DNA of 49,306 bases from a virus, in the IMG/VR virus record IMGVR_UViG_3300032770_000031, positions 1 through 49,306 of that record. One strand, written 5' to 3'. Position 1 is the stretch's first letter, and each line of letters starts with the position of its first letter. The translations under genes were made by a program, and so were the position numbers. Shown piece by piece: positions 2,111 to 49,306 of this stretch. The notes beneath the pieces were generated by a model that searched no databases, was not told the DNA's origin, and worked only from the letters and a program-made list of their open reading frames with translations.

Positions 2111-4390
2111 TCAGAAGATGACCTTCCAACTTGGTGTTGAGGTAATGGTTAGATTGGTGTTAACCGTCGGAGGAGGCTGATTGGTCGGCAACGTCCCGCT
2201 TGAAATCCCGACATACCACAGCTCAGCCGGAATCGGTGCCTCGAACGGAGTGCCATACGGGTCAATCGCGGGCCATCGGTTCGTGCCCCACCATTCGGGT
2301 GCGCCGTTGGTGTATAACAAGGAGGCCGGTGACGGGTCCGTAATTGTTGAGTTAGTAATCCAGTGGGCCGTCGGATGATCATAGGTCTGCCACTCTAAAG
2401 CGTGCAGAATGTAGTTGTTGGTCTGGTCCTGCTGCCACTGGGGGTACTGATAGGAGCAGGAGCTAAACATTCGCCAGCCGTTGGTAACGTTTATTGGATA
2501 CGACAGAATCATGTTGGTCGTGGAGATAGACACGGCATACAGATTCTCAAAATGAGCTAGTCCGGGGTCCAACTGCTGACTCAGAGTGTGGTAGAAGTTC
2601 GTATCCACCGAGTCCTGAAATATCAGGTTGTAAGCGTTGGGAGAGCCAAGTGGCCAACCGGAGAAGTCGCCAGTGAGGTTTGTGGTTTGAACCAGAGTGT
2701 TGGTTATGTAGTAACTCAGATTGGTGTAAGTCTGAAACGAATCTCCGGGATAGTTCCATGAGATAGGAGGAGTCGTCCCCGTGTGAGCACACGCCCCGCC
2801 GATAAACGGACTCCCAAAGTTCATCATCGGGAAGTCGAGGGGGGCTCCGCAGTCGTAACCCTCTTCCGCATAGTCGTTAGTCGAAATACCGTTAGAAACT
2901 AGAACTAGGTTCGTATACCCCATCACGCAGCTAACGATGTTCATAAACGTGTTCCAGCGCATCAGGCTGATGTTCATGATGCGGTCCCTGAACCACGTTT
3001 GATGACTATTGCTTCCTGTTAACCCATCGGCCTCTACCTCGGCGTTGAAAACGTTTGCCTCATACAGGTTCATCAAGTCATGCGAGGCGTGCATGTCGAC
3101 CGCTCGGTTGATGCAGTTGGTCCAAAGGTTTGCGAAGTAAGCGCAGCCAACGGTGGAGCCGAATACGTAGTAGCTCCAGTTACACCCGTCGAAGACGTTG
3201 TTCTGGAGCAGGGTACCCGAGCACAGCGCATGGTCGAACCCGGTTTGAGTGTGTAACAACTCCATTATCTTCGCAATGTAACACCGATCTATCTCTAAAT
3301 CCACACTCGATGACGCCTTCAAATGGTCACCGGAGCAGTAAGTAATCGAGCAGTTGGTTAAAAAACAGTCGCAGCTTCCGGTTACGAATACTGCCCCACC
3401 ATTACCGCCAGAGGGTACCGACTCCCCCGTCTCAACGTTGGTCAAGGTAAGGTTCAACCCGTCAATCCCAACTCTGCGGGTGGACAAACCCATAGGACCA
3501 TGATCTTTAATGGTCAACACTGACTGATTTGTGTAAGACCAAGATAACGGCGGTGCTATAGTCAGGTTTGTTCCATCAACGCCGTCAACGTGTATAGCCT
3601 GCCCGACGATATGCTCCGAGCCAGCCGTTGACCATACCCGCATTACATCGTCCGTTCCGTTCAACTGAGACACCCGGAGCACGGTATTGGGAACTATCGT
3701 CGTGCCGTATTGGCTAGCGTTGCTGTAAAGGGTAATCGTGGTTGAGCCCTTCTGCGCTTGACTGACATACCAGTAATCCAACTGACTCACGGCGTCTCGA
3801 CCAATCTCAAAAGCGAAGGACTGAGAACCGCAGTAAACCCATTGGTCCAAAGCGTTGGTTGAGGATTCACAACGGAATGTAATATCAGCTACGTCTCGCA
3901 GGACCACACCATCATAAGCTAGGTATCGACCCTTCGGTACATATATCACATCGCCGGCGGTAACGTGTTGATAGTCCATCCAGTTCACTATTAAGCCATT
4001 ATCATGCCGGACGGTAGCGTTCGTTGCGCCAACGTACGCTGGGCTGTTCAGCGACCAAGTGTTTCCCACGATGTTGGTAACGATTGCACACTTCCCGCCC
4101 CAAGGGGTGCCGATTCCAGCGCCAGTAACATAAACACTTTGACCGATGGCGAAATCTCCTTGGCTAGAAACGGTAAGGGTGTAACTATTGAGCGCGATCG
4201 TCCCGGTCACGGTCCCGCGGTTAGTAGTCCCTCCGTAATCAAGGATACTAACCAGGTTCGTCCTGGTCGGAATACCCCCACGCACCCCCACCGTCACCCC
4301 GCGTACCCACGGAATCATCCGGTCAGCGGGGATAAAGTCCGCCCTGACCGTAAGGCACGCGAGCGCCAGCGTTGTTAAAAACAGCCTCAC
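2111..4390 (-). CDS. beta-helix tail-spike-like protein with signal peptide
   Basis: About 759 residues if started at the GTG at 4390, which overlaps the stop of the 43-aa gene as GTGA. This start gives MRLFLTTLALACLTVRA-DF, a compact signal peptide; an ATG at 4423 would add eleven residues ahead of it. Residues about 120-170 (NGLIVNWMDYQHV...GDVIYVPKGRYL) look like the entry to a pectate-lyase-type fold. They are followed by repeated short turns rich in N, C and G (FLTNCSITYCSGDHLKASSSVDLEIDRC) typical of a right-handed parallel beta-helix. Such proteins bind or cleave cell-surface polysaccharide. A Sec signal is unexpected for a spike assembled in the cytoplasm. Confidence 0.75.
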   Translation of the reverse strand: MRLFLTTLALACLTVRADFIPADRMIPWVRGVTVGVRGGIPTRTNLVSILDYGGTTNRGTVTGTIALNSYTLTVSSQGDFAIGQSVYVTGAGIGTPWGGKCAIVTNIVGNTWSLNSPAYVGATNATVRHDNGLIVNWMDYQHVTAGDVIYVPKGRYLAYDGVVLRDVADITFRCESSTNALDQWVYCGSQSFAFEIGRDAVSQLDYWYVSQAQKGSTTITLYSNASQYGTTIVPNTVLRVSQLNGTDDVMRVWSTAGSEHIVGQAIHVDGVDGTNLTIAPPLSWSYTNQSVLTIKDHGPMGLSTRRVGIDGLNLTLTNVETGESVPSGGNGGAVFVTGSCDCFLTNCSITYCSGDHLKASSSVDLEIDRCYIAKIMELLHTQTGFDHALCSGTLLQNNVFDGCNWSYYVFGSTVGCAYFANLWTNCINRAVDMHASHDLMNLYEANVFNAEVEADGLTGSNSHQTWFRDRIMNISLMRWNTFMNIVSCVMGYTNLVLVSNGISTNDYAEEGYDCGAPLDFPMMNFGSPFIGGACAHTGTTPPISWNYPGDSFQTYTNLSYYITNTLVQTTNLTGDFSGWPLGSPNAYNLIFQDSVDTNFYHTLSQQLDPGLAHFENLYAVSISTTNMILSYPINVTNGWRMFSSCSYQYPQWQQDQTNNYILHALEWQTYDHPTAHWITNSTITDPSPASLLYTNGAPEWWGTNRWPAIDPYGTPFEAPIPAELWYVGISSGTLPTNQPPPTVNTNLTITSTPSWKVIF

Positions 4391-4518
4391 TTGCCCATTG
4401 CGGCCCATAGTTGGCGGTTGCATAACGCGACAAGTCGTTTATAGGCTTGCTCGATTGACTTGTCGTAGGCCGCAACTCGGTCCTTAGTGGTTTGTCGCTT
4501 GTTGTTCTTTGTTTTCAT
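4387..4518 (-). CDS. 43-aa basic protein upstream of the spike gene
   Basis: The ATG at 4518 begins MKTKNNKRQTTKDRVAAYDK and the frame runs for 43 residues to TGA at 4387. It is strongly basic at the N-terminus and helical in character. The stop overlaps the GTG of the beta-helix gene as GTGA, the same coupling seen elsewhere in this unit, which supports both calls. No family is recognised. It could be a leader peptide controlling the spike gene rather than a working protein. Confidence 0.5.
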   Translation of the reverse strand: MKTKNNKRQTTKDRVAAYDKSIEQAYKRLVALCNRQLWAAMGK

Positions 4519-4544: not shown

Positions 4545-6506
4545 TTAATTATGAGCATTCACGGAGATGGATTGTATCCATGACATACTACCAGAATCCC
4601 CGTTGGCTGTAGAATTCCACCCAACCACTAACTGAGCCGTACAGTTCGTGCTTACAAGAGATAACGCCGAATTGGTGATATAATATATAGTGCTTGCGTT
4701 AGTGAGCACTAAACTAGATGTGCTTGAATACGGCCCACCACTAGCCCCAGTTGTCCAAGACTCGACCGCAGCATAAATCTTTTCCGTCATCCCCGGTGTA
4801 CCAGGAGATCGAGTAAAACACTCTGTTATTATATCTAGTTTAGTAAAACCGGCAATTTTCTCTTGGGGAAGGTTATATATCCCTAAAGTGGCCCCGGCTG
4901 CGGCTAGTCTTAATGCCTTTGCGTTTGCCTGACCCGTGATTCCGCTACCATCATCAAAGGTCAACAAGTTTGCACCATAGGTTGTGAAAAGCGGAACCTC
5001 AAAAAAGTTATTAGTTACTATGGATTGAGTAACACTGGTAACAGGACCAACAACGCTTAAACGGTACAAGTTAAATCCCCCGGTATTAACCACGCTACTT
5101 AGCTGGCCTGTACAGTAACCATTGGTCTTGTCAAAGATATTTTGCACAAAAACAGTATTAGTGTAAATACCAGGGATGTTGGTTAGTGCCACAGCAAACG
5201 ATCCAGTTGCATTGGTCTTCAAATTCCAAAACCCAATAGCCACATCACCGTTGGCCAACTTACGAACAATTATGTGTTGATTCGTGCTATCAGTCCAACT
5301 ATCCACCGACGGTAATATAACCCCCGGTAAGGCCGCAGGGTCTTGATCTATAGCAATCGCCGCTATATTAGTTATGAACTGGGACGCAAGATTAGTTACC
5401 AAAGTGTTTGGGTTAGATACTTGAACACACAGAGAAGAAGGAGCCAGACACATAGTTCCCATATCTGCTCTGGCATAGTTGGTGTTCCACCACGTTGGAC
5501 CAGTGAAATCAGGTAGCCCAACGGGACTACAATACAAAAAGAACCCCGGGCCAACAGCAACGTTATTGGAGAACAGATTTAGCAAAGCAAACTGTCGGTC
5601 CTGCGGACCATTGCTCCCGCTCGTATCACTCACCCCCACATACATTTCATTGATTATGTTAGGCAACCATGCGTTTGTTTGATACTGCCAGTAAGCTATA
5701 GCTGCGTAAATATCCACCGCAGGCGAGTAACCAGAAGCAGCAACAGAATCATCGAGGCCGTTGGCGAGTAAACGAAACGTAGGATCAAACGGCCTTTCTG
5801 GTGTCCCATCCAGACCATCCATCCAAACCTTACGAACACCCCACGCTCCTAGTGTTCTTCCTACCGAGTATGCGTTGGTTGGATAACAAACAGGTGGATA
5901 GTCTTCCGTCGTATAAAGGTGTAAGCCAAGATAACATCTATTAGTTGCCAACATGTTTATCAAATCTGGCATACCGTTTGGTGCAAAGGCAGTAAGTGGG
6001 ATTACACCTAAAGTAGGATCGTTAGTCCCCCACCCACCATCTAAAGTAATGGTGTTGAAGCCCAGGTCAACCCATCCGTTGGTATTAAGTATGTTTGCAA
6101 TCTGTCGAACTAACTCGTAAGTCCAAAACACTCCACCGTGCCAGCCCATGTTTGGTACACGGAGTGCGGCTTTGCGCATTGTTGGGTTAACATCAAACAA
6201 CTTGTTACTACCAACCCCTGACAGGGTGCTCCCATCCCCGTAGAAATGCGCAGCCGTGACATTGCCGCTCACAGTCAGAGAGCCCACGATATTACTGGGA
6301 ACCACACTCACCACCTGAGTGGTCACTACAAACACCGTCCCAGTCGGCGCGATACCGAGTGCGAGATACGCCGCGTTAGTGTCCGCCGACTTCAGGAACT
6401 GCCTGGTAAACGCCGTCGTCTCCGGCGGGAGCGGCTGACCAAGGCTCACTCCCGCCGGTGCGGAGCATATGACAACAACCAAGAGAGAAAGGATTTTACG
6501 CAGCAT
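4545..6506 (-). CDS. GH27-like alpha-galactosidase in the virion module, with signal peptide
   Basis: 653 residues from the ATG at 6506 (an ATG at 6542 is less likely). It begins MLRKILSLLVVVICSAPAGVSLG, a signal peptide. Residues about 75-98 (SLTVSGNVTAAHFYGDG) look like a fibre connector. Then come the landmarks of clan GH-D family 27: NMGW, GFNTITLDGGW at 149-159, LGLHLYTTED, VRKVWMDG with Asp230 as the expected nucleophile, VGVSDT with Asp294 as the expected acid/base, a GPGFF loop, and IAIDQDP at 384-390. The spacing between the two Asp residues and on to IAIDQDP is close to that in human alpha-galactosidase A. A beta-sandwich-like C-terminal region follows. The gene is AT-richer than its neighbours, which suggests transfer. 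The likely role is cleaving alpha-galactosides on the host surface. Confidence 0.8.
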   Translation of the reverse strand: MLRKILSLLVVVICSAPAGVSLGQPLPPETTAFTRQFLKSADTNAAYLALGIAPTGTVFVVTTQVVSVVPSNIVGSLTVSGNVTAAHFYGDGSTLSGVGSNKLFDVNPTMRKAALRVPNMGWHGGVFWTYELVRQIANILNTNGWVDLGFNTITLDGGWGTNDPTLGVIPLTAFAPNGMPDLINMLATNRCYLGLHLYTTEDYPPVCYPTNAYSVGRTLGAWGVRKVWMDGLDGTPERPFDPTFRLLANGLDDSVAASGYSPAVDIYAAIAYWQYQTNAWLPNIINEMYVGVSDTSGSNGPQDRQFALLNLFSNNVAVGPGFFLYCSPVGLPDFTGPTWWNTNYARADMGTMCLAPSSLCVQVSNPNTLVTNLASQFITNIAAIAIDQDPAALPGVILPSVDSWTDSTNQHIIVRKLANGDVAIGFWNLKTNATGSFAVALTNIPGIYTNTVFVQNIFDKTNGYCTGQLSSVVNTGGFNLYRLSVVGPVTSVTQSIVTNNFFEVPLFTTYGANLLTFDDGSGITGQANAKALRLAAAGATLGIYNLPQEKIAGFTKLDIITECFTRSPGTPGMTEKIYAAVESWTTGASGGPYSSTSSLVLTNASTIYYITNSALSLVSTNCTAQLVVGWNSTANGDSGSMSWIQSISVNAHN

Positions 6507-7224
6507 AGTAGGTAAAGGTTGCGCTGGAGTCGACCTGAACATAGGACGTTGGACTGGACGAAAGAGCGATGGTGCAGCCGGTCTTGCGAACCGGGGGACC
6601 GATCACCGGGCCGGAGGAGGACTGAGCGGTGACGACGGAGGAAGGGTTCAACCCGTCGACGCCGAAGTCAATCGGCGCGCAGGTGATATCGGGGTCGGTT
6701 TGGAGATAAACAATTGGGATGGCGACGACCGGCCGGGTTGCGTACGAATCGTCAGCGAAGACGAGGAGGAACGATGCGGCGCTGTTGGTTCGACCTGTGA
6801 CTGTAACGCGGTAAAGCCGGTGCTGGGAACCCTGTGCCTCGGCCCAAACCTGTTCAACGTCGGACGAACTGCTGTGCACCGCCGCCGCCGGATTCAACGG
6901 CTCGGCGTATTTCTCAACGTCGATCAGAAAATCGGCCTTATCGGTTGAGAGGGTCAGGGTTGCCTCAGTGGTCGAAACCGCAACATAAAGCCCCTGTGAA
7001 AGAGGAAGAATGTTCGGGTCGAACTTCCACGAGAACGGCATCTTGGACTGTAACTGGTATGACTTCAACGGAATCGCCCCGTTACCGGGGTCCGTCGTAT
7101 CATGAATCTGCAACCACGCGTCCGCTGCACCGGAGAAATACCCTTGCAGGTTGACGAGGTTACACGGAAACGAAGTGGCTTGGAGATCGCTAACCCCGTA
7201 AGCCGGTACAACTGTCTTTAACAT
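6496..7224 (-). CDS. unknown virion-module protein
   Basis: 242 residues from the ATG at 7224; a TTG at 7230 overlapping the previous stop is also possible. The chain is rich in beta-forming stretches and Ser/Thr (TLTLSTDKADFLIDVEKYA, IVYLQTDPDITCAPIDFG, TIALSSSPTSYVQVDSSATFTYYAA) with no membrane segment or catalytic motif that I recognise. It lies between the adaptor and the GH27 gene, so it is probably a structural protein of the neck or tail, for example a tail-hub or spike-adaptor component. The end overlaps the GH27 start by 11 nt. Confidence 0.7.
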   Translation of the reverse strand: MLKTVVPAYGVSDLQATSFPCNLVNLQGYFSGAADAWLQIHDTTDPGNGAIPLKSYQLQSKMPFSWKFDPNILPLSQGLYVAVSTTEATLTLSTDKADFLIDVEKYAEPLNPAAAVHSSSSDVEQVWAEAQGSQHRLYRVTVTGRTNSAASFLLVFADDSYATRPVVAIPIVYLQTDPDITCAPIDFGVDGLNPSSVVTAQSSSGPVIGPPVRKTGCTIALSSSPTSYVQVDSSATFTYYAA

Positions 7225-7226
7225 AA

Positions 7227-7964
7227 TCAATTATGGGTGGTGACTATAACCAACGGAACAACCCGCTTCGGCGTGTCGTCCCTTTGACCCGACCCGAGAA
7301 TGTAATCCTGTTTCCGAGACGGGTAAATCGCTCGCAGTTTCAGCAACCGCTGCTGCGCACGGGTTAATTTAATCTGAGCGTCTTTTTGGTCATACCGAGC
7401 AAGGAGTTCCGCTGCCGCGAAAAGCACGATGAGTTCGTCGTCGAGGTCAGCGACGGCGGATGTGGTTGGGTTACCATCGGAGCCGACCAGCGATACAGGC
7501 ACCCTCTGCCCGGTGAAGCGGAGGATTTGACCGTCCGACGCAGGAATCGGCCACACTTCAAACTGCCCCTGCTCCGAGGTCTCACTGGTCGCCGACTGCT
7601 GCGTCCCCCACTGCCACCTTTGGACCGGGTCCAGCGTTGTCCCAAGATCGCTGTCGACATCGTTATACTCGTCACTCCCAATCCCGTAGTCGACCTCTTG
7701 CCACGCTTGGTTGTATTTCACCTCAACCTTAATCGGGCGTTGGGTATCCAGCGCCGTCGGCATGGAGAAGAACCGGGTCGACGCCTTAAGCGTCACATCA
7801 AACCGGGTTCGCAGAAACGGCCAATCCCACTCGGAGGCAAGCCAGCGTTGAACGTCTGAAAGAATCTGGTAAAACACCGTATCGTTCGCCGTCCCCACAG
7901 CCGGGTTATGCCCGGTGTGGACCTTCAGCATGTTCAGCAACTGTGGGGCGGGAACGAGGTTCAT
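7227..7964 (-). CDS. head-tail adaptor protein
   Basis: 245 residues. The N-terminal region LLNMLKVHTGHNP...FYQILSDVQRWLASEWDWPFLRTRFDVTLKAS has the helical layout and the conserved W..E.DWPFL pattern seen in podovirus head-completion/adaptor proteins (gp4 of P22 and T7 gp8-neighbour types). They form the ring beneath the portal on which the tail is built. A helical C-terminal segment (DDELIVLFAAAELLARYDQKDAQIKLTRAQQRLLKL) is also typical. Its position after the capsid genes and before the tail genes agrees. Confidence 0.65.
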   Translation of the reverse strand: MNLVPAPQLLNMLKVHTGHNPAVGTANDTVFYQILSDVQRWLASEWDWPFLRTRFDVTLKASTRFFSMPTALDTQRPIKVEVKYNQAWQEVDYGIGSDEYNDVDSDLGTTLDPVQRWQWGTQQSATSETSEQGQFEVWPIPASDGQILRFTGQRVPVSLVGSDGNPTTSAVADLDDELIVLFAAAELLARYDQKDAQIKLTRAQQRLLKLRAIYPSRKQDYILGSGQRDDTPKRVVPLVIVTTHN

Positions 7965-8426: not shown

Positions 8427-9098
8427 CTACGGTGCCGCTTGACAGAGGCCAAACTGTTGGACCTGTAACCAGCCAGCGGTGGTAGTGTTGGTGGTCAACG
8501 TGACAACCGGGATAAACGCCTTAAAGCACTGCATCCAGGACGGAACGTTGGTGATGATGGTGACCGGGGTAACGCCGGTGGCGGTCACGGTGAACGCGAA
8601 CGAATGCGTCGAGTCGTATGTAACCCCGTCCATCGTGGGATAAACGGTAACTCCGAGAACCGAGTTCATCGCAGCGTTGGTGCCGACGACGGTCACATAG
8701 ATCGTCGAGGGCGAGACGTTGCCGTCTGTCAGAGTCCCGATCTTAGGAAAGGCCCACGGGAACCCGTTGAGCACATTCGTGTTGACCGTAGTCCAGTTCC
8801 AGCCGGCGGTTGCGTTGGTGTAAACGGCGTTAGTCGAGACTGGTATCCAAGAGACGTTGGTGGCCGACAGCGGCCAACGCATGGTGCCGTCAGCGGTGTA
8901 GAAGACGATACCATTTGTGGCCGTGGTTGTCCAAGTCGTAGTCGTTCCAGTCCCACCAAACTGCGGACTCCCGCACCAGGCGTAAAGGGCGATGTTTGTA
9001 GTGTCACCCCTAAAGAACGACTGCTTCTTGATTTCCACGCCGGAAGCGGAGAACCCGACTACCGCGGCGAGACCGAGCGAGATAAGAATGTTCTTCAT
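8427..9098 (-). CDS. exported-looking protein next to the capsid gene
   Basis: 223 residues starting MKNILISLGLAAVVGFSASG-VEI, a convincing signal peptide. The rest is Thr/Asn-rich and beta-like (TTTTWTTTATNGIVFYTADGTMRW...TNTTTAGWLQVQQFGLC). It directly follows the major capsid gene, with GGAGG in the capsid C-terminal codons serving as a ribosome-binding site. A gene in this position is often a head decoration protein, but decoration proteins do not normally carry Sec signals. It could instead be a secreted or outer-surface protein. No family is recognised. Confidence 0.7.
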   Translation of the reverse strand: MKNILISLGLAAVVGFSASGVEIKKQSFFRGDTTNIALYAWCGSPQFGGTGTTTTWTTTATNGIVFYTADGTMRWPLSATNVSWIPVSTNAVYTNATAGWNWTTVNTNVLNGFPWAFPKIGTLTDGNVSPSTIYVTVVGTNAAMNSVLGVTVYPTMDGVTYDSTHSFAFTVTATGVTPVTIITNVPSWMQCFKAFIPVVTLTTNTTTAGWLQVQQFGLCQAAP

Positions 9099-9101
9099 AA
9101 C

Positions 9102-10172
9102 TTATGCAACCTCCATGATTTCGTGGCAGTTGAGCTGAGTGGCCTCGAGTGCGCCGGTCCAGGTCATGGACCGAAGGAAAACGAGGTATTGATACGGACG
9201 CTCAGGCGCTCGCACCTTGTCGTCCTCACCCGCCATCGGGCGGAGGGTCAACCGGCGACCGTCGATGAAGTAGGCGAACTTCGACCGGCCAAGAGAGTCG
9301 AGAGTGGGGTCGTACTCGAACTCGAGGTTGTCGATATAGAACGCCCCCATGCCGATTTCATTCTTGCGTTTGAAACCGGTCTGGGTGTAGGTGCCTTTTG
9401 CCTGGACCTCAAGCATCAGCGCGTCCCAGAAATCCGAACCCATGAACACCTTGGAGGGCTTGCCGCCGTAGCGTTTGAGCTGGATAATCTCATGCCGGAT
9501 GGCCTTTGTGAGGGTTTGGTCGGACTCACTCGGCGTGATGCGACCGGGATTCGTAGCCGTTGGTTCTCCCATGCGAGCACGGAAGTTCCACCAGCTATAC
9601 GTGGTGCAGGACAGCCCACCGATGCTGGCCACACCTGGGCCACCATCCTGTAGAATCGACCGGACTCCGGGGCACTGCTTGGCGTCCTGAGAGCCATCCA
9701 TCCAGAACATAACGTTCTTTCCCCGGCTGTACGCCTCGCCGTAGTCATCCAAGCGGTTCTCAAGTATGCCGGTTAACCGAGCTACCTCAGCCTCCGCGTG
9801 GTCGCTCGCCTTCATGGAGTCGTTCACCGAGACACCGTCCTTCTTGAGTTCGGTCTCTGTTATGATCAACCCAGCGTGGCACTCTCTCCACGGGTAAAAA
9901 ACCCGATGTAGGTTCTGTGCCTGCATGAAGGTCAAGGCGTCGTCTTCGCTGTACCCGGCAAAGAAGCCGGCTGCCGACGTATTCGACGCCATGAAGTCTC
10001 CTTGAACCGGGGAGGAGATGTTCCCCTGACCACCGCCGAACTCCTTTTGGTTCTCTTTCAAAAACCGGAGCAGCGGCTTGTCCTGTATCGTCTGAAGAAA
10101 GGCTTTGCCTTTCACGTAGAAGTCAAGTGCGGCATAGACGATGTCCGCAGCGACTGTTGTACCTAACGCCAT
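9102..10172 (-). CDS. major capsid protein
   Basis: 356 residues. The pattern MALGTTVAADIVYAALDFYVKGKAFLQTIQDKPLLRFLKENQKEFGGG, then VQGDFMASNT, WRECHAGLIITETELKKDG, KPSKVFMGSDFWDALMLEVQAKG and a C-terminal strand RPYQYLVFLRSMTWTGALEATQLNCHEIMEVA is that of HK97-fold capsid proteins of podovirus-like phages. Order (portal, scaffold, this gene) and length agree. The start has a weak AGAAAG ribosome-binding site. It is probably the most abundant virion protein, forming the icosahedral shell around the scaffold. Confidence 0.85.
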   Translation of the reverse strand: MALGTTVAADIVYAALDFYVKGKAFLQTIQDKPLLRFLKENQKEFGGGQGNISSPVQGDFMASNTSAAGFFAGYSEDDALTFMQAQNLHRVFYPWRECHAGLIITETELKKDGVSVNDSMKASDHAEAEVARLTGILENRLDDYGEAYSRGKNVMFWMDGSQDAKQCPGVRSILQDGGPGVASIGGLSCTTYSWWNFRARMGEPTATNPGRITPSESDQTLTKAIRHEIIQLKRYGGKPSKVFMGSDFWDALMLEVQAKGTYTQTGFKRKNEIGMGAFYIDNLEFEYDPTLDSLGRSKFAYFIDGRRLTLRPMAGEDDKVRAPERPYQYLVFLRSMTWTGALEATQLNCHEIMEVA

Positions 10173-26356: not shown

Positions 26357-26719
26357 ATGAGTCCAACTTACAGAGAAATCATCCGTGAAATGAAATTGTC
26401 GGGCCACTACAGTGAGGCCGAATCGTTGGAGCGTTCTCTTAAGCGCGGTCACGGCTCTGAATACGATAGGGTCTATTCACGTAGCGATGCCCGCGACGGC
26501 CTATCCATAATGTCCTACGCCGGGGACATTGCTGAACGCGCCTATGATGACCTTCGCTACAGGGAACGTCGGGAACAGGAACGTAAGGAGGAAGAAGAAC
26601 AGGAACAACGGTGGCAAGAACAGGAACGCCACCGACGCGCCGAACAAGAGTTCTACGAAGCACAGCGTGAGGCCGAAGAAGCGCAACAGGAACAACAAGA
26701 TGAAAATCACAATCTATGA
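26357..26719 (+). CDS. coiled-coil protein rich in Glu/Arg/Gln
   Basis: 120 residues. A helical N-terminus (MSPTYREIIREMKLSGHYSEAESLERSLKRG) is followed by an extended E/R/Q helix from about residue 70 to the end (RYRERREQERKEEEEQEQRWQEQ...). This is a coiled coil or single alpha-helix with no catalytic motif. It overlaps the ATP-grasp gene by 20 nt. The role is unknown. Confidence 0.65.
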   Translation: MSPTYREIIREMKLSGHYSEAESLERSLKRGHGSEYDRVYSRSDARDGLSIMSYAGDIAERAYDDLRYRERREQERKEEEEQEQRWQEQERHRRAEQEFYEAQREAEEAQQEQQDENHNL

Positions 26720-27893
26720 TCACGGGTTGAACACCGAGGTCGGCGTCGCCCTTGCAAAAGCGGGCCACCCCACCGGCTACTTCACCCCCTGGGACGAAGC
26801 GTTCCCAAAATCCGCCAAAGCTTTTATCGGGACAGGGTTAGAGGGAATCGAACGCGTCACCGACTTCGAGAAAGCCGCTGAACGCTCGGACCTGCTGGTC
26901 TTCCCCGATACCTTCAACGGCGAAAAGGTCGACTACTGGCGACGACGGGGCAAGAAGGTCTGGGGCGCTGGCTACTCCGAACGCCTTGAACAAGACCGAG
27001 TCTACATGAACTCTCTGCAAAAGCAACTCGGTATCCCAACACCAGCCCGCAAAGTCGTCAAGGGCATCGAGGCTTTGGACTCTCACCTGAAAACAGTGAA
27101 AGACAAATGGGTCAAACTCTCCAAATACCGCGGCGACAAGGAAACCTTCCACCACGCGGACTACGAATCCACCCGTGCACAATTCCTCGGTACTATGTGG
27201 TCCGAGTTCGGTGCTAACCCCGACCTTGAATGGATAATCGAGGACAGTTTCGACGGCGTCGAGGTCGGCAACGATGACTTCTTTGTCGACGGGGAATGGC
27301 TCCAACCCGGGATAATCGGGTACGAGAAGAAGGATGAGGGTTACCTGTGTAAGATTGAACCCGCTCCGCCGTTTGTTCAACGAATCAAAGACGCCCTCCG
27401 GCAGACTCTCCGGTCGTACGACTGCAACTCCTGGGTCTCTTTCGAGATACGGGGCGGGAAACTGATCGACCCGTGTATCCGCTGCCCTCACCCTCCCACC
27501 GCCACGATGCTCGTGATTTACAAGAACATCGCCGACATAGTCACCTTCAAGTCCACAACGCTACAACCCGTCGCCGCCTACGGTGCTGGGATAATCGTCG
27601 GGTCGGAATGGGCCGAGAATCACTGGTGTGAAATCAAAATCGAACAGAAGTATCGGGACTTCGTGAAACTCCAAAGGGCCTGTCGAGTCGACGGACGCTA
27701 CTACAGTCTTCCCGGTAGTCCAACCGTCTGCACCTGCGTCGGCATCGGGGACACTCCCGAAAAGGCGATCAAACAAGCGAAGACGGTTGTCGAGTCGATC
27801 TCTGTAACCGGGGCATCGTTCAACACATCGTCCCTTGATGAACTCCTTTCAAAGACGGTTCCCGAGGGCAAAAAGGCCGGCATCCCGTTCTGA
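26700..27893 (+). CDS. ATP-grasp ligase (PurD-like)
   Basis: 397 residues from the ATG at 26700. The order of elements resembles phosphoribosylamine-glycine ligases: KVWGAGYSERLEQDRVYMNSLQKQLGIPTPARKVV (compare E..K.....L...GIPTP), then a WVKLSKYRGD strand-loop, IIEDSFDGVEVGNDDFFVDGEW (acid residues after a strand as in EEFLxGxE), and VSFEIRGGKLIDP toward the end. The glycine-rich GKGV loop of true PurD is not conserved. The substrate is unknown. ATP-grasp enzymes ligate amino groups to carboxylates; in a DNA-metabolism operon a nucleotide or DNA-base modification role is a possibility. Confidence 0.6.
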   Translation: MKITIYDHGLNTEVGVALAKAGHPTGYFTPWDEAFPKSAKAFIGTGLEGIERVTDFEKAAERSDLLVFPDTFNGEKVDYWRRRGKKVWGAGYSERLEQDRVYMNSLQKQLGIPTPARKVVKGIEALDSHLKTVKDKWVKLSKYRGDKETFHHADYESTRAQFLGTMWSEFGANPDLEWIIEDSFDGVEVGNDDFFVDGEWLQPGIIGYEKKDEGYLCKIEPAPPFVQRIKDALRQTLRSYDCNSWVSFEIRGGKLIDPCIRCPHPPTATMLVIYKNIADIVTFKSTTLQPVAAYGAGIIVGSEWAENHWCEIKIEQKYRDFVKLQRACRVDGRYYSLPGSPTVCTCVGIGDTPEKAIKQAKTVVESISVTGASFNTSSLDELLSKTVPEGKKAGIPF

Positions 27894-28212: not shown

Positions 28213-29565
28213 ATGACCACAAAAGTAACCAACATAATCATCCCCGACCGCTTTCGGCAGGAATACGGGAATGTCCAGGAACTCGCCGATTCGATCAAAC
28301 GCTACGGTCTCATCCACCCACCGTTGGTCGACATATCCCCCGACGGGAAGATCACTCTCGTCGCCGGCGGACGCCGGATGCAGGCGGTAAAACTCCTTGG
28401 GTTGGAGGAAATCCCGGTGACCGACCGAGCCAACATGACCCTGATGGAGCAAAAGGAGGTCGAGTTCGAGGAGAATCACAAACGCCTTGATACAACCTGG
28501 TGGGAGGATGCGCTCGCTGTTGCCGAAATGCACGATCTAAAACGGGCGGAGTTTGGCACGAAACTCCGGGGGCCTTCCGACGAGTCCAACATCGAAGGCT
28601 GGACCCAAGACAAAATGGCGGCCTTCGCAGGTGAATCCGTCGGCCACATCAGCTACCTTCTCCGTATCGCAAAGATGCTCAGGTCAACCCCGAAGGTCAA
28701 CGAGGCCGGCGAGCCCAACGGTATCTGGGCCTGCACTGGCTACAAAGACGCCGTGCGCTTCCTCATCGCGACTACGACCGGCCAAAAGGCGTCCGAGGAA
28801 ATCAACCGTCGCCGGGCGGTGCTCGAAGCGGCGACTCAGTCCACCGAAAGCCCGGAATCCCCCGCTCCGTTAGTTTCACCCGATGAATCTAACCAGGCAT
28901 CGAAGCCACCTATCGAGAACACCGCCGTCATCAACGGCACCCCGAAGGACTATCTCACCTGCAACTTCAAGGACGATCTTATAGAAGACTCCGCCTCCTG
29001 CATCGTCGCCTTAGACCCTCCCAAAGTCGCTTGGCCTATCATAAAGCAACACCTCCGGCAAAGCAACGGCTACGCCGTCCTCTGGTTCACCTCTTTCTCC
29101 GACTGGGAAAGCTATCACCGCTCTCTCGACGGTCAAGTCTTCCGCATGGGTTACCCGCTTGTCTGGAACCGAATAAAAGCCACCGACAAAAGTGAGTGGC
29201 CTCATGCATCAACGGCTACCTATGGCTTGGTTGTCAGTAAGGGGTTGCATAGTGAAGTCGAGAAACCAGCACCGTCGGTCGTCGCGGCCTTACCCGATAC
29301 CCCCGACTATCTCCCGGTCCAAGTCCTTGACTTCAGTATCAACCAGTTCACCAACGACGGCATGGCGGTTAACTGTCTCTGGGGAGTAGACCCGGTGGAT
29401 GTTGCGTCTCTCGCCCGGGTACCGGTCTTTTATGAAGGCGACGCAGAGAAATACGACCGCGCTGTCAAAAAGCTCACCCTTTACTACCAGGAAACCGTCC
29501 CCAATATCAGGGTTATCACTCGTCAACAAGCTATCGAAGAACTGAACAAGTATAACTGTCTATAA
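28213..29565 (+). CDS. ParB-like protein fused to a methyltransferase-like domain
   Basis: 450 residues. Residues 1-120 have the ParB/Spo0J N-terminal pattern (VQELADSIKRYGLIHPPLVDISPDGKITLVAGGRRMQAVKLLG), though the arginine patch of CTPase-type ParB proteins is only partly present. A KorB-like helix-turn-helix follows (WTQDKMAAFAGESVGHISYLLRIAKML, about 135-162). A disordered linker at about 205-245 contains palindrome site F. The C-terminal part begins with ALDPPK at 267-271 and has GYAVLWFTSF and PLVWNRIKATDKS, resembling an N6-adenine methyltransferase with a degenerate DPPY motif. It may bind the dispersed palindromes. No ParA partner is seen. Confidence 0.7.
   Translation: MTTKVTNIIIPDRFRQEYGNVQELADSIKRYGLIHPPLVDISPDGKITLVAGGRRMQAVKLLGLEEIPVTDRANMTLMEQKEVEFEENHKRLDTTWWEDALAVAEMHDLKRAEFGTKLRGPSDESNIEGWTQDKMAAFAGESVGHISYLLRIAKMLRSTPKVNEAGEPNGIWACTGYKDAVRFLIATTTGQKASEEINRRRAVLEAATQSTESPESPAPLVSPDESNQASKPPIENTAVINGTPKDYLTCNFKDDLIEDSASCIVALDPPKVAWPIIKQHLRQSNGYAVLWFTSFSDWESYHRSLDGQVFRMGYPLVWNRIKATDKSEWPHASTATYGLVVSKGLHSEVEKPAPSVVAALPDTPDYLPVQVLDFSINQFTNDGMAVNCLWGVDPVDVASLARVPVFYEGDAEKYDRAVKKLTLYYQETVPNIRVITRQQAIEELNKYNCL
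28869..28893. promoter_or_regulatory. dispersed 25-bp palindrome, site F (inside ParB-like gene)
   Basis: The left arm GTTAGTTTCACC, central C and right arm GATGAATCTAAC match at 10 of 12 positions. In frame it encodes LVSPDESN in the linker between the ParB-like and methyltransferase-like parts. A binding site inside the gene of its possible binder recalls parS sites located within parB genes. Confidence 0.8.
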
Positions 29566-30470: not shown

Positions 30471-31073
30471 ATGAAACCTTTAACCCTCCACCAACGCATC
30501 TCTCTCTACAATGAACAATTTCCCCCGCCGCCACTATACGTCTCCGCGCTCAACGGACGCGAGTTCATCCTCGGTTTCTGGTTCCTCGGTGGAAACCGTC
30601 ATAGCGGCTTCTACGGAGCGTACCATCAAGAATATCTTACTCGCATCACTTCCCTCTTTCCCGACGCGGGACGCGTTCTGCACCTGTTTAGCGGCTCGCT
30701 GCCGCCCTCTGCTAACTACACCCGAGTGGGCATTGACCCAACAGGAAAAGGAACAACGGCGGATATTATTGGAAACGCTGAAGCGCTTTCCTCGTTCCTT
30801 CCGTTCAGGCCGGACGTAATATACGCGGACCCGCCTTATACCAAGCAAGAGGCGGAGGACGAGTACCAGGTTAGTCTCATCAACGGTCCCCGGGTAGTAT
30901 CCGAGTGCGCCCGTGTGCTCCAACCCGGTGGGTATCTCGTCTGGCTCGACCAGCGACTACCCGTCTTCTCCAACAACGAGGTGAATCTCGTTGGAGTGAT
31001 CAGCTACATCCGATCAACAGGTAACCGGTTCCGCTGCGTCTGCATATTCAAGAAACCCGCGAACTCTAAATGA
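30471..31073 (+). CDS. DNA adenine methyltransferase-like protein
   Basis: 200 residues. RVLHLFSGSLPPSANYTRVGIDPTG resembles the SAM-binding motif I region, and DVIYADPPYTKQEAEDEY carries the DPPY catalytic motif at residues 120-123. GGYLVWLDQRLP follows as a later strand. It is likely to methylate DNA at N6-adenine or N4-cytosine, for protection from host restriction or for replication control. It overlaps the polymerase start (ATGA). Confidence 0.75.
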   Translation: MKPLTLHQRISLYNEQFPPPPLYVSALNGREFILGFWFLGGNRHSGFYGAYHQEYLTRITSLFPDAGRVLHLFSGSLPPSANYTRVGIDPTGKGTTADIIGNAEALSSFLPFRPDVIYADPPYTKQEAEDEYQVSLINGPRVVSECARVLQPGGYLVWLDQRLPVFSNNEVNLVGVISYIRSTGNRFRCVCIFKKPANSK

Positions 31074-33784
31074 GCGTACCAAACAAACTCCCCACGATCG
31101 TCTCCGCCCGACGGGTTGCACTGATCGGTGAAGCACCCGGCGAATCCGAGACCTTCTACAACGAACCCTTCTGCCCGCGCCGTACCCCAACCAACCCCTA
31201 CGCCGGTGCCTCCGGTCGGCTGTTGTCCATGATTCTCAACCGACCAGCAATCTCCCAACCCCGCGAAGCCTGCTTCCTCGGTAACATCTGCCAAGAACGC
31301 CCACCCGGAAACCAGCTTCACCTGTTCAAATGGGACGGACCGGAGATACAGGAATCCTTGGTGCGGCTCAAAAGCGACCTCGACGCGTTCAAACCCCAAG
31401 TCATCGTCCTTATGGGCAACCTCGCACTCAAAGCTGCGATGGACCCGGACGGCAGGCATCCTCTCACCGCCAACGCCTACCGCAACAAAATCAGCAACTG
31501 GCGTGGCTCGGTTCTGGATGGGAACTTTCCGAACTCGATCTTCGCGGGGTATCGCTGTGTGCCGTGCATTCATCCGGCGAACGCGCTTCGGTCGTCAGAC
31601 GAAACTCCTTTGGTCGAGTTCGACCTCCGCAAAGCCGTCAGCGTCACAAACGGCTACAAACGCATTCATCGAGACTTCGTTATCCCGACTACCCTCGCGG
31701 AGCAACTCGCCCTCCTCGACAATGTCCAGCAAAGGAAACAGCTCGTCGCAACCGATATAGAGGGATACTGGAACAACCTCAAGTGCATCGCCTTTGCCCT
31801 GTCTCCATCCTTCGCCTTTATCGTCCCCTTCGTCCGGCGAGACGGCTCCCGGTACTGGTCCGCCGTCGAGGAACCCATCGTCTGGCGGAAACTCGCCACC
31901 GTCCTCGAAGACCCCAGGGTCGGCAAGGTCTGGCAGAACGGTCTGTACGACCGCTTCGCCCTTGCTTACGGCCACCGGATTTACGTCAAAGGCAACGTAG
32001 CCGATACCATGCTTAAATGGTGGGAGATGTATGCGGAGTTGCCGAAAGCTCTCAGTATGCAAACCAGTATCCTGACCGATGTCCCCTACTACAAAGGTGA
32101 CATAAAATCCGACGACGACGCGACCTTCTACCGGTACTGCTGCATGGACGCCGCCGTTACCTACGAGATCAACTCGAAACTCGACACCGTCCTCCCTGCT
32201 TCCTCCGCTAATCACTCCGAGTTTAACCAACTCCTCCATAACGCCTTACTCTTCATGGAACTCCAGGGTATCGCGTACGACCTCAACGGGGCAAGAACCC
32301 GACGAACCGTCCTCCAGAACAAAATGTATGAAGAACAAGCAAAGCTCAATGGTCTCACCGGACGCCGGCTGCCGAGTCCAACCGGACTCTTCAACCGTGC
32401 CCGCGAAATCTACGGTTACAAATCCGCCAACATTCCCGACTGGGACACTCTCGCCCGCAACACTTACGCCGGAAAAGGCGAGAGAACTGAACGACTTTGT
32501 CACCTTGTTCGCCAACCTCTTACTCTCCAGGTTCTAGGAGAAATCGAGGACCTGTGCGAAGTCTCTCTCAACACCAGCAGCAGCGACCAGTTCATCCCGT
32601 TCCTTTATGAAGAACTCAAACTCCCACCGCAGTACAAAGAAACCAAAGATAAAGCAGGGAACAAGACCAAAGCACTCACAGGTGATTATGAAGCGTTACT
32701 CAAACTCTCAAAACACTGCCAACGAGAAGGACTCACACTCCACCACCGTATTCTCCAACATTGTATCACAATCCGTGCACTTGATACTCGGCAGAGAATG
32801 TTGGGGATTGAGTGTGACCCGGATGGGCGTGTGCGCTGTGGATATAACATTGTGGGTTCGGACACTGGGCGAGTCCAATGCTACACCAGCCCTTCCGGTT
32901 CAGGTTACGCTTTGCAGACGATACCTGACTACAGCAAACCCGATGAAGCACCGGGTGGTGTACTCGGCGACCGTGACCTATTCCTCGCCGACGCCGGTCA
33001 CAAATGGCTCAAAGGTGATCTCAAGGGAGCTGACGGCTGGACAGTGGCAGCGTATAGCGCGTTCCTTGGTGACCCGACCATGCTTGAGGACTATAGATAC
33101 GGTCTGTCCCCTTTTGAGATAATGGTCCTGATTCTCCGGGGGACACCCGGGGTTGACTACCGAGACCGGGAAAGCATCAAAGCCGCGATCACAACCGTAA
33201 AGAAAACCGACTGGGACCGGTTTGCTATGAAACGGGTCCAACACGGAGCGTCCTACCTAGAAGGCGGGTTAACCATCTCCAACAACATCCTCAAAGACAG
33301 CGAAGGGAAACTCTTTATCGAGCCGTCAGAATGCGCCCGTATCCGGGACCAAGTCTTCTTCACCCGCTACTGGGGCATCCGTAAATGGCATGACTGGGTC
33401 GCTCGACGGATTAAAGAACGACCAGAACTAACCGCGGCCTCCGGTCAAGTACGTAAGTTCTTCGGCAGAACCGACGAAATCCTCCCCAAGGCCATCGCCT
33501 TTGAACCACAAAGCAATACCACTTATGTTCTCAACCTCGCACTCCGCAATCTCTGGCTCGACCGGGAGAACCGGCGACCTGACGGCGGCCTATTTATCCG
33601 CCCCTGTCACCATGTTCATGACGAACTCAATACCCAGGCACCGACCGACCGCCTCCAGTGGGCGATTGAGAAGTTCCGTTCTTATTTCCAGAACAAAGTC
33701 CGGATTGCTGGCGTCGACCTGGTTATACCTTTCGACGGTGCTTATGGGACGGCATGGGGGAAGTGTGACGAAGGGAAGATTTAA
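31070..33784 (+). CDS. uracil-DNA-glycosylase-like domain fused to family A DNA polymerase
   Basis: 904 residues. Residues about 15-200 resemble family 4-type UDG: GEAPGESE at 20-27, PYAGASGRLL near 43-52, a ...GNICQERPPGN loop and a late CIHPAN. The 3'-5' exonuclease follows with DIE (Asp229, Glu231), NGLYD with Asp294, and YCCMD (Tyr356, Asp360), all intact. The polymerase has motif A at about Asp650 (GDLKGADG), motif B RFAMKRVQHGASY with Lys721, and motif C HDE with Asp851. The position equivalent to E. coli Pol I Phe762 appears to be His725, which is unusual. Replication may be linked to uracil sensing. Confidence 0.85.
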   Translation: MSVPNKLPTIVSARRVALIGEAPGESETFYNEPFCPRRTPTNPYAGASGRLLSMILNRPAISQPREACFLGNICQERPPGNQLHLFKWDGPEIQESLVRLKSDLDAFKPQVIVLMGNLALKAAMDPDGRHPLTANAYRNKISNWRGSVLDGNFPNSIFAGYRCVPCIHPANALRSSDETPLVEFDLRKAVSVTNGYKRIHRDFVIPTTLAEQLALLDNVQQRKQLVATDIEGYWNNLKCIAFALSPSFAFIVPFVRRDGSRYWSAVEEPIVWRKLATVLEDPRVGKVWQNGLYDRFALAYGHRIYVKGNVADTMLKWWEMYAELPKALSMQTSILTDVPYYKGDIKSDDDATFYRYCCMDAAVTYEINSKLDTVLPASSANHSEFNQLLHNALLFMELQGIAYDLNGARTRRTVLQNKMYEEQAKLNGLTGRRLPSPTGLFNRAREIYGYKSANIPDWDTLARNTYAGKGERTERLCHLVRQPLTLQVLGEIEDLCEVSLNTSSSDQFIPFLYEELKLPPQYKETKDKAGNKTKALTGDYEALLKLSKHCQREGLTLHHRILQHCITIRALDTRQRMLGIECDPDGRVRCGYNIVGSDTGRVQCYTSPSGSGYALQTIPDYSKPDEAPGGVLGDRDLFLADAGHKWLKGDLKGADGWTVAAYSAFLGDPTMLEDYRYGLSPFEIMVLILRGTPGVDYRDRESIKAAITTVKKTDWDRFAMKRVQHGASYLEGGLTISNNILKDSEGKLFIEPSECARIRDQVFFTRYWGIRKWHDWVARRIKERPELTAASGQVRKFFGRTDEILPKAIAFEPQSNTTYVLNLALRNLWLDRENRRPDGGLFIRPCHHVHDELNTQAPTDRLQWAIEKFRSYFQNKVRIAGVDLVIPFDGAYGTAWGKCDEGKI

Positions 33785-45566: not shown

Positions 45567-47221
45567 ACACCGATGCCGATTGTGAAGATGACGGTGACTT
45601 GAACTGTCACCGTGTTAGGAACCGCAGCATTATCAGTAACCGTGCAAATATAAACCGCTGTCGTCGTCCCCGCTCCCGCCGCGGTTGCAACCGTTAGTGA
45701 GAAACTGGTCGTCGCCCCGGTTGGGTTGTTTACAACAATCGGCGTTCCGGACACCTTCGCCCTCCATTGAAACTTATACCCCGTCCCCATAGTCCCGCCA
45801 GATGGAGAGACGGTCACGTTTCCAGAAGTGAACTTCTTCGGGGTGATTACCCCGCCGCTCCAGATGACCTGTCCTCCGGTGGTCAACGAAGTGGGCTTAA
45901 CCGTCGCCGTAAGATTCAGCGTCCCCGCCGCCGTAAGTGGCAACGATGCCCCGCCGCTGTTAAAGATTTCAAAGTAACCCCGGAAATCCCCCCACTCCGG
46001 GTTTGCCAACGGGAAAACCGAGTAATTCGACGACTGCGCGGTGTACCCGATTATATTCTGGTTAATCACTGCGGCCATAGCTGCCGCGACGGTGGTGGTC
46101 GTTGCACCTGTCACGTTGAAACTCTCATCCACGCAGAAGGCATAAAGGAGTTCAAAATACCCTGTCGTATCCGCGGTGTAGTCCCCCGAGGAGCCCGAAA
46201 CCCCGATTGTAAAATACTTCCCGTGGGAATCGAACCCACTCCCGATGACCTTATACGCTCCCGGATGAAACGCTGTACCACTTATCCTAACAATATTACT
46301 GGCAACAGGGTAAAGCGTTTCACTGGGGTTAAGATAGAAGTTAAAAGTCGTGCCCGACGTCTGCCACCGACCCAACGACTGCAAACTCGTCTTCTGCGGG
46401 TAGTAAGACGCGGCCATACAAACTGTTGCCGACGGTACCGACGACAGCCCGAAGCCATGGTTCGTTGCACTAAGGTAGGCCGGAACCGAGTTACCCACAA
46501 AATCATACCCCACGAGAGTAGAGGCGAGTGCGCCGACGGAGGAGTTAACCGTGGTCACCGGTTCAAAATACTCCCCTGATGGAGAGGTCAGGATCACCGT
46601 CCCGCCGCCCGTCGCCTGCGCGTTCCACCCGGCTCCCAACGTCGCGGCTTGCTTTGCCAACAGCGTTGCCATGTCGCTCGGAGTCATCGGGGTAGTAGGC
46701 GACTTGGGAACGACAATCCCGGCGGAACTCTGTAGGATAAGGGTTGCAATAGGGACCGTCCCAAATCCCGAAACCGTACCCGTCCCATAATAGAGAAAGG
46801 TATTCCCATCTACAAACTTCGCTGCGACGAAAGCCTTCCCGTTGTAGTTCCGAGAAAACACCACGCTCTGCAAGGCATGAACCGTCGCGGAGTAAAACCC
46901 CCAGCCGAAGCAGTACGGATACGGATGAATAACCGGGATATACGATACCCCGGGTGGGAGAGACGCAGTGCCGGTAAAGCCGGGTGATGTACCAACCGGT
47001 AACCCACCGAAGACGACCAGTCCATCAGACGTCGCCTCAAGCCCGAACGTCCCGGCCAGACCGCCGGCTGCCAACGGCACAAACGCCTTCCGCTTTTCGA
47101 CCTCACCACCTGGGGTGATGTGAGCGTTTTCCAGCTTGACCAGAGTCCCGGGCTGACTCGACAAAGCCAACCGACGGCTGTCAAGCCCGAACTTGAAGTT
47201 CTCTAAGACAACGTATCTCAT
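45563..47221 (-). CDS. tail nozzle/hub protein, first part
   Basis: 552 residues. The start VVLENFKFGLDSRRLALSSQPGTLVKLENAHITPGGEVEKRKAFVPL is characteristic of phage nozzle/stabilisation proteins whose first strands read F..GLD.RR......PG.L..LENA....GGEVEKR. The long Ser/Thr/Gly-rich beta region that follows has Ig-like text near the end (GGTMGTGYKFQWRAKVSGTPIVVNNPTGATTSFSLTVATAAGAGTTTAVYICTVTDNA). Nozzle function therefore seems to be divided between this and the following gene. Confidence 0.7.
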   Translation of the reverse strand: MRYVVLENFKFGLDSRRLALSSQPGTLVKLENAHITPGGEVEKRKAFVPLAAGGLAGTFGLEATSDGLVVFGGLPVGTSPGFTGTASLPPGVSYIPVIHPYPYCFGWGFYSATVHALQSVVFSRNYNGKAFVAAKFVDGNTFLYYGTGTVSGFGTVPIATLILQSSAGIVVPKSPTTPMTPSDMATLLAKQAATLGAGWNAQATGGGTVILTSPSGEYFEPVTTVNSSVGALASTLVGYDFVGNSVPAYLSATNHGFGLSSVPSATVCMAASYYPQKTSLQSLGRWQTSGTTFNFYLNPSETLYPVASNIVRISGTAFHPGAYKVIGSGFDSHGKYFTIGVSGSSGDYTADTTGYFELLYAFCVDESFNVTGATTTTVAAAMAAVINQNIIGYTAQSSNYSVFPLANPEWGDFRGYFEIFNSGGASLPLTAAGTLNLTATVKPTSLTTGGQVIWSGGVITPKKFTSGNVTVSPSGGTMGTGYKFQWRAKVSGTPIVVNNPTGATTSFSLTVATAAGAGTTTAVYICTVTDNAAVPNTVTVQVTVIFTIGIGV

Positions 47222-49306
47222 TGATAAAGCGGGTATTTGAAGACGCTGCCGTCGCTCAGGTTGGTATAGTTCGCCCAGCTAACGATGCTATTGGTGTTAC
47301 CCGGGGCTGAGTTGGTCCCACCTGCCCACCCGGTTGCCTGATTGATAAACCCCTGAGCTGAGATTGGTGAATAGGCTACATGCGGCAACGCCGGGTTCGT
47401 CGGGACCAGATCGACCACTGCCCCGCCGTAAGCCAGCACAAGGGAGTTACTCGCATCGGTGTAGTTCCCCCAGCCGACAACACTGTCGAAGTAGAAGTTG
47501 GTTCCGTTATACCTGGTTCCGTAATTCCCGCCGGCGACGGGGACGTTAGTTGGGTCCAACATAGTATAGGGATAAGTAGCCGGGTCCAGAACCTTTACCA
47601 TCCCATGCGGACAGGGGTTACGGGCAGAGAACGCATTACTCCAACCGCTCTGTGCCCAGTTTGTGAGATAGTACCCGAGGTCGCAGTAACCAATATAATA
47701 GCTCTTAGGCGTGAAGAAACAGAACCTTGCACCGGTCGTCGCACAAATCGGCTGCGCAGACGGGTCGGCGGCCGTGTCAATCTCCTTCCCGTCCCCGTAA
47801 ATATTTATCGTCCCCGCCATTTGCCAGTACGACGACGGGACGGGCAGCCACGCGAGGTAGTTCAGAGGGGCAGCCACGAACTCGTTTCCCGAAATCCACC
47901 AGAAGTTGTCATTCAACGGCCCGGTGTAGTTCCCGCTTCCGTCGTACGACCCCGTCGACGGCTCTTTGAAAACCACATTCGCCCCTATCCAGTAGGGCGA
48001 GTTTGTCGGCCATAGATTCTGTCCCCACCTCCCGGCGATTCCACAGTTCTCAAACGCATTGTTCTCAATCGCACCCCAGTCAGAGGCGAACGAGATGCCG
48101 CAGTTAAGACCGATGAACGTACTGTCCCGAATCGTTATCTGATCGTTGAAATTGCAGTCAACGTTAATCCCAATCAGGTTGAACTCTGTCGTTCCTGCCG
48201 GGCCGTGAGACCAGGTTGAGTTGGTCATCGCTCCGTAGAGAAAGATACACCGGTAAATATCGGCGGACTCTACGGACCCGACACCGGCGTAAGAACCCAA
48301 CGGGTGCGCCGCCGTAATGCGTAGGATATTGGTGCACCCATCAAGCGTTGACGACATGTACATGTTCTTAAACGATACGCTCACAGTGTCCGGAAAATTG
48401 CCTCCGACTGGGTCGCCGACATACACCGGTTCTACCGTCATTACCTCTTGAGTCACTGACCCAACATAGGTTATCCCGCTTGATATTTTCCCACTACCCT
48501 CGATGTTGAGGGTGACCATGTTTGTCCCCCAATCAGGCCCCGGTATCAAGATGTTAGTGAGAGTATAAAACGGTCCAGGAGCGAGGTAAATCGTGCCACC
48601 GGGTTTTCGGTTGGGACCGTTGGTACCGAGCAACCAGTGTATCGCCTCCTGAATCCCCGCAGTCATCGACCCGGGATTAAGATAAACGGTGCCGTTCGCT
48701 ATGAAACTCCCGTTTGTCTGGACAACCACAAAGGGAAACGGCGCAGCGTTATTCGTCGCCAGTGCGATTATGTCAGCGACGACAAACCGGGAATCCACAT
48801 TCGACGGAGTGTCCCCGGCAACGAGGCTGTCGCCGGTTACAGAGGCAACCGGGAGATTCGACAAGACAGCTCCGCCTGAGGGACCGTTCGACCCGCTGTA
48901 GTAGTTGATTGTAACGTTCGTAGTGATTGTCTGGTAGTATACGTTATTCGTCACCGGCACATACGCTACCAGGTTCGTCATACAAACCCGCCAGTCAATC
49001 GGTCCGTCATTCGTCGGCGCTGAGAACCACTGCGGACACGAGAAAATCGGGGAACTGAGCCAGTAGTTCCCCGGAGTGAAGTACTTCGTGAAGCACCCGT
49101 TCTCGTCAGGCACAAACCTCACCGGCAACATCGAGATTATACTAGCGCCGTTGTACAGCGCCGCCCCGTTTGTTGGCGGGACTGGAGTAAAGGTCAAGGA
49201 CGAGCTGTCAGGCTGTCCAAGACCGTTAGTCACACATCCGGTAATAATCCCGGAGAAGACCGGGCGGAGCGGACAAAGGAACAACAACGCTAGTATAAAT
49301 CTAATC
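47218..49306 (-). CDS. second beta-helix spike-like protein (main part)
   Basis: This continues from the start at 132 across the window ends; positions 49180-49306 duplicate 1-127. The full protein is about 697 residues with a signal peptide. A central beta-helix is shown by TVYLNPGSMTAGIQEAIHWLLGTNGPNRKPGGTIYLAPGPFYTLTNILIPG and later short-turn repeats (TIRDSTFIGLNCGISFASDWGAIENNAFENCGIAG). The pattern is that of a pectate-lyase-like spike. The C-terminal part is Thr/Asn/Tyr-rich. The protein probably binds or trims surface glycans; its stop overlaps the nozzle gene start as ATGA. Confidence 0.75.
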   Translation of the reverse strand, partial: IRFILALLFLCPLRPVFSGIITGCVTNGLGQPDSSSLTFTPVPPTNGAALYNGASIISMLPVRFVPDENGCFTKYFTPGNYWLSSPIFSCPQWFSAPTNDGPIDWRVCMTNLVAYVPVTNNVYYQTITTNVTINYYSGSNGPSGGAVLSNLPVASVTGDSLVAGDTPSNVDSRFVVADIIALATNNAAPFPFVVVQTNGSFIANGTVYLNPGSMTAGIQEAIHWLLGTNGPNRKPGGTIYLAPGPFYTLTNILIPGPDWGTNMVTLNIEGSGKISSGITYVGSVTQEVMTVEPVYVGDPVGGNFPDTVSVSFKNMYMSSTLDGCTNILRITAAHPLGSYAGVGSVESADIYRCIFLYGAMTNSTWSHGPAGTTEFNLIGINVDCNFNDQITIRDSTFIGLNCGISFASDWGAIENNAFENCGIAGRWGQNLWPTNSPYWIGANVVFKEPSTGSYDGSGNYTGPLNDNFWWISGNEFVAAPLNYLAWLPVPSSYWQMAGTINIYGDGKEIDTAADPSAQPICATTGARFCFFTPKSYYIGYCDLGYYLTNWAQSGWSNAFSARNPCPHGMVKVLDPATYPYTMLDPTNVPVAGGNYGTRYNGTNFYFDSVVGWGNYTDASNSLVLAYGGAVVDLVPTNPALPHVAYSPISAQGFINQATGWAGGTNSAPGNTNSIVSWANYTNLSDGSVFKYPLYQ
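49180..49306. repeat. 127-bp terminal direct repeat, right copy
   Basis: An exact copy of 1-127. It shows that the contig closes on itself and that this segment should be counted once. Confidence 0.95.

Follow-up and report, generated by a model that had tools for sequence, protein, structure and literature searches.

A distant GH27 relative behind a fibre-type connector in the virion gene block of an uncultured phage

Introduction

What would a phage do with a glycoside hydrolase domain of family GH27 encoded among its virion genes? This question is raised by an IMG/VR virus record of 49,306 bases, which was analysed over its whole length (hereafter, the window). A reading frame on its minus strand had been described in an initial annotation as a GH27 alpha-galactosidase-like enzyme with both catalytic Asp residues and a fibre-like connector, which could act as a virion spike on an alpha-galactose-containing host glycan. 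Podoviral tailspike depolymerases that are known (P22, Sf6, HK620 and the K1 lyase type) are mostly trimeric beta-helices. In this study we examined the homology, the active site and the genomic setting of the protein, designated as the slot-1 protein after the position of its gene, and weighed its possible roles.

Results

Genome and gene layout

The first 127 bases of the window are identical to the last 127 bases, and the window is thus very probably a complete phage genome. Judging by its neck genes, the source is an uncultured phage of apparently short-tailed type. Terminase, portal, capsid and adaptor genes are carried on the minus strand (Table 1). Among named phages, Microcystis phage Mae-Yong1326-1 and Rhizobium phage RHph_N65 come closest, with capsid proteins that are 39.5 and 32.5% identical, respectively; both resemble this phage in the capsid, TerL, adaptor and DNA-stabilisation proteins and in gene order. 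The counterpart of the adaptor at the matching place in the Microcystis phage is annotated as "tail tubular protein".

Related genomes were collected by searching with profiles of the adaptor and capsid proteins, and about 21 related uncultured phages have the same layout as the window: capsid gene, signal-peptide protein, small protein, adaptor, beta-sandwich protein, slot 1, lysis-type genes and DNA-stabilisation protein. Elsewhere in the wider family, for example in the Microcystis phage, the adaptor is followed directly or almost directly by the stabilisation protein. Unlike this phage, Mae-Yong1326-1 and RHph_N65 have neither a spike slot between the adaptor and the stabilisation protein nor a GH27 domain. 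Slot 1 is a conserved spike position in the virion module of the clade. The initial annotation had placed the gene between a neck-type protein and a beta-helix spike; the virion module and the beta-helix neighbour, a probable second spike, were confirmed, but the protein immediately upstream is a beta-sandwich protein and the adaptor lies one gene further up. This upstream protein is predicted to have two beta-sandwich domains (AlphaFold2 pLDDT 85), and structure comparison gave no clear solved match, the nearest folds being those of uncharacterised phage proteins.

The slot-1 gene is a late, tightly packed gene on the structural-gene strand. Its start overlaps the stop of the preceding gene (6496), and translational coupling of the two genes is hence likely. 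An alternative ATG lies upstream at 6542 and would give a protein of 665 aa.

Table 1. Features of the slot-1 protein and of the surrounding virion genes
Feature	Coordinates	Strand	Basis
Slot-1 protein with GH27 domain, 653 aa (P0001), ATG at 6506	4545..6506	-	open frame, GH27 homology
Sec-type signal peptide, residues about 1-22 (MLRKILSLLVVVICSAPAGVSLG, then QPLPP)	6441..6506	-	rule-based scan
Fibre-type connector, residues about 23-110 (TTAFTRQFLKSADTNAAYLALG; NVTAAHFYGDGSTLSGV)	6177..6440	-	
GH27 (beta/alpha)8 barrel, residues about 111-403	5298..6176	-	
Asp230, aligned with catalytic nucleophile	5817..5819	-	
Asp294, aligned with acid/base	5625..5627	-	
GH27 C-terminal beta-sandwich (Melibiase_C-like), residues about 404-489	5040..5297	-	Pfam 22.4 bits
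C-terminal region, residues 490-653	4548..5039	-	model confidence low
Major capsid protein	9102..10172	-	phrog_9953 E 4e-22
Signal-peptide protein, clade-specific, right behind capsid gene (post-capsid gene)	8427..9098	-	
Neck adaptor ("tail tubular" type)	7227..7964	-	34-41% identity to relatives
Beta-sandwich protein between adaptor and slot 1, clade-conserved	6496..7224	-	
Beta-helix protein, signal-peptide-like N-terminus	2111..4423	-	Beta_helix 22.3 bits (sub-cut-off)
Third spike-like protein; frame runs over the 127-bp terminal repeat, then starts MKIRFILALLFLCPLRPVFSG	47218..49287	-	

Several other features of the genome were observed. The DNA-stabilisation (gp10-like) protein is encoded by two ORFs here (44310-45566, with an Ig-like tail, and 45563-47221) and by one ORF in many relatives. 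A family-4 uracil-DNA-glycosylase-like domain is fused ahead of a family A DNA polymerase (31070-33784, plus strand), and an ORF at 26529-27893 (plus strand) weakly matches an ATP-grasp enzyme (PurD, E 2.4e-4). A 25-nt imperfect palindrome near GTTAGATTCACCCGATGAAACTAAC occurs in six copies (1259, 10988, 15561, 16916, 28869 and 41555), one of them within a gene for a protein with a ParB N-terminal domain (28213-29565); the copies are possibly binding sites of that protein.

Homology to GH27

Residues 111-489 of the slot-1 protein are homologous to GH27, and the relationship is distant but real. The Pfam models Melibiase_C (22.4 bits, cut-off 22.9) and Melibiase_2 (15.0-17.7 bits, cut-off 23) stayed just under their cut-offs. 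The best phmmer match in the PDB was human NAGA (3h53, E 6.6e-4), and blastp and tblastn aligned bacterial GH27s with the domain over its full length (20-26% identity, best E-value 6e-14). An HMM of bacterial GH27s built without the slot-1 protein gave 72.6 bits, against 4.0 for the best of 2000 shuffled sequences, with the mild circularity that the GH27s in it had been picked partly by their likeness to the slot-1 protein. The 38 best PDB fold matches of an AlphaFold2 model were all GH27 enzymes (TM-score 0.81 on the target for 1UAS); because a GH27 alignment guided the prediction and so biased it towards this fold, the model is not a fully independent line of evidence. The same alignment-guided model has the GH27 architecture of a barrel followed by a C-terminal beta-sandwich, the latter with pLDDT mostly above 90. 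For residues 490-653, no relative was found in related phages. As the four methods agree, membership of the GH27 family, as originally proposed, is secure.

Compared with rice alpha-galactosidase (1UAS), human GLA (1R46), human NAGA (3H53), SaArap27A (3A21) and isomaltodextranase (5AWO), the slot-1 protein is alike in the barrel and beta-sandwich, in the placing of the Asp nucleophile and acid/base, and in the MGW motif, the first Asp of the DD pair and the QD motif. It differs from these enzymes in its low identity, in the losses described below and in its N-terminal phage fibre connector.

Active site and substrate

The residue aligned with Asp230 is Asp in all 78 relatives and that aligned with Asp294 is Asp in 76 of 76, which bears out the catalytic pair of the initial annotation; the region of Asp294 was predicted with low confidence (pLDDT about 58). 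Asp156 (the first Asp of DD), Trp159, MGW including the pocket Trp, and the QD motif are also kept. Among 36 aligned positions that are near-invariant (at least 97%) in GH27 relatives, 19 are kept and 17 are lost. Given that about half of such positions are kept, retention of both Asp residues by chance would not be rare, and the pair is suggestive, not proof, of catalysis. Nor do relatives support selection on the pair, because no other phage of the group has a related GH27 domain.

Most of the residues that hold the sugar are among the losses. The Lys preceding the nucleophile is replaced by W228 and the Arg preceding the acid/base by V290, the Cys pair of the active-site disulfide by T200 and L232, and the second Asp of DD, a position less strictly conserved than the 36, by Gly157; the DxDML (NDxDML) loop of the binding site is absent. 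Judged by human GLA (W47, D92, D93, Y134, C142, K168, D170, E203, R227, D231 and D266), these lost positions are mostly sugar contacts. With the galactose-binding set thus missing, neither the name alpha-galactosidase nor the proposed alpha-galactose-containing substrate is supported; if active, the enzyme probably attacks a host-surface sugar other than alpha-galactose. In characterised GH27 enzymes, one active-site position reported to govern the preference for Gal or Ara is Asp, Glu, Ile or Cys (PMC4598101); we infer that it may correspond to Gly157 here.

Slot 1 across related phages

The cargo of slot 1 is swapped between relatives and the proteins, fibres among them, are unrelated: a GH28 beta-helix plus LamG (L005), LamG (L170), a GDSL-like protein (L175, weak match) and a K1-lyase C-terminal tailspike domain above the cut-off (L188). 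Several of them nevertheless share the N-terminal connector. When the N-terminus of the slot-1 protein was compared with all ORFs of 86 related loci, the first match was the slot-1 ORF of L200 (E 8.6e-7; E 1e-4 without the signal peptide) and the second that of L187 (E 0.0064). The connector motif TTxYTRxFLxSADxxAA was also visible in L198 and L004, and an initial three-sequence alignment of slot proteins was informative at the N-terminus only. Such slot-1 proteins hence join differing C-terminal cargo to a common attachment module at the N-terminus, and the fibre-like connector suspected earlier is common to four other phages. PHROGs was uninformative for this protein and for most of its counterparts in the clade.

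Signal peptides in the clade

The N-terminus of the slot-1 protein has a basic n-region, a hydrophobic core and a small-x-small cleavage site followed by Gln, as called by a rule-based scan and not by SignalP. By the same scan, signal-type starts near the adaptor were found in 42 of 209 ORFs in 11 clade loci, against 8 of 309 in 23 outgroup loci. By a script count, roughly 18 of 22 slot-1 proteins carry one. The post-capsid gene has one in every genome with the slot in which this gene can be seen, and so do two further proteins of the window, the beta-helix protein and the third spike. The signal-peptide proteins of the window have few charged residues and are fairly Cys-rich. The outgroup phages are mostly without the slot and without signals, and the Microcystis phage, unlike this phage, has no signal peptides within the scanned region. 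The association is imperfect: L207 and L208 have a post-capsid signal but no slot, and L245 and L260 gave marginal outgroup calls. The second slot protein of L171 (12198-12998) has a Tat-like twin-arginine start (MKLSRRQFVKTGA) followed by a LamG domain.

Rarity and origin of the GH27 domain

GH27 was not found in 62 related phage records or among the ORFs of the 86 related loci, and the slot-1 protein had no match in 50,697 phage records; searches of IMG/VR, phage records and genomes found no close relative of it. Searches with canonical GH27 yielded seven unannotated human-gut contigs among phage records and two contigs only in IMG/VR; L168 and L169 carry canonical GH27. The family is thus as unusual in phages, within the collections searched, as had been supposed. 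The literature searched contained no paper combining GH27 and tailspike.

The slot-1 gene has a GC content of 47.5% (46% in the domain), against 55-57% for most of its neighbours. Because the gene is AT-richer and the other phages of the group lack GH27, the module looks acquired. In a search for the host, the capsid profile matched none of 388 genomes from the phylum to which a Victivallales genome belongs, and the GH27s present there were no closer to the slot-1 domain.

Discussion

The explanation that we prefer, at roughly an even chance, is that the slot-1 protein is an exchangeable receptor- or glycan-processing spike or fibre, with a cellular GH27 enzyme domain joined behind the N-terminal signal peptide and fibre connector of the clade. 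It draws on the homology, the catalytic Asp pair, the slot, the common connector and the swapping of cargo between relatives; the slot, the cargo, the connector and the low GC content together match the picture expected of a spike gene that has recently gained an enzymatic module. The protein would sit on the virion or be loaded onto it late, and would hydrolyse a host-surface glycan by the retaining mechanism of GH27, with Asp230 as the nucleophile and Asp294 as the acid/base, in a remodelled pocket that may no longer read galactose in the usual way. The C-terminus, which is rich in beta structure, may serve in binding or oligomerisation. Such a protein would resemble podoviral tailspike depolymerases in its virion module, its carbohydrate-active cargo and the swapping of catalytic parts; it differs from them as a TIM-barrel glycosidase with a signal peptide.

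The plain reading as a virion spike is supported by the position of the slot but complicated by the signal peptide, which the initial annotation had overlooked. A Sec-type signal should remove the protein from the cytoplasm, where virions assemble, and this leaves free secreted enzymes, late joining to the virion, or a hydrophobic N-terminus that serves for attachment. A free enzyme, exported by Sec during infection to remodel the surface glycan of infected or nearby cells with no part in the virion, might ease release, free progeny from debris or block superinfection. The signal peptides with small-x-small and Gln on this and most other slot-1 proteins of the clade, the Tat-like start in one relative, and the few charged residues and fairly high Cys content of the window's signal-peptide proteins are in keeping with this role. 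We nevertheless consider it rather doubtful in view of the tail-fibre-type connector, the tailspike C-terminus of K1-lyase type that one relative has in this slot, and the location of the slot beside the adaptor within the block of virion genes. A related proposal, that the outermost proteins of the clade (spikes and the post-capsid protein) are exported to and mature in the periplasm and join the virion only at or after lysis, with GH27 as one exchangeable cargo, seems quite improbable at present.

The losses in the binding pocket (Lys, Arg, second Asp, disulfide and DxDML loop) would also suit a lectin-like GH27 fold that is non-catalytic and serves adhesion only; this is improbable, given that the protein retains Asp156 and the MGW pocket Trp beside both catalytic Asp residues. 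The same losses of galactose-binding residues argue against an auxiliary metabolic gene (AMG) through which the host could better use galactosides from plants or algae as food. A signal peptide would fit an AMG, and a GH27 is listed among the viral AMGs of a coral virome (PMC11656804), but the fusion to a phage fibre connector and the location in the spike slot led us to reject this idea, which has barely any chance of being correct.

If the slot-1 protein is indeed an exchangeable spike or fibre, a TIM-barrel glycosidase would join the mostly beta-helical depolymerases of phages. The pairing of the spike slot with signal peptides across the clade raises the testable question of the place and manner in which spikes are added to these virions.
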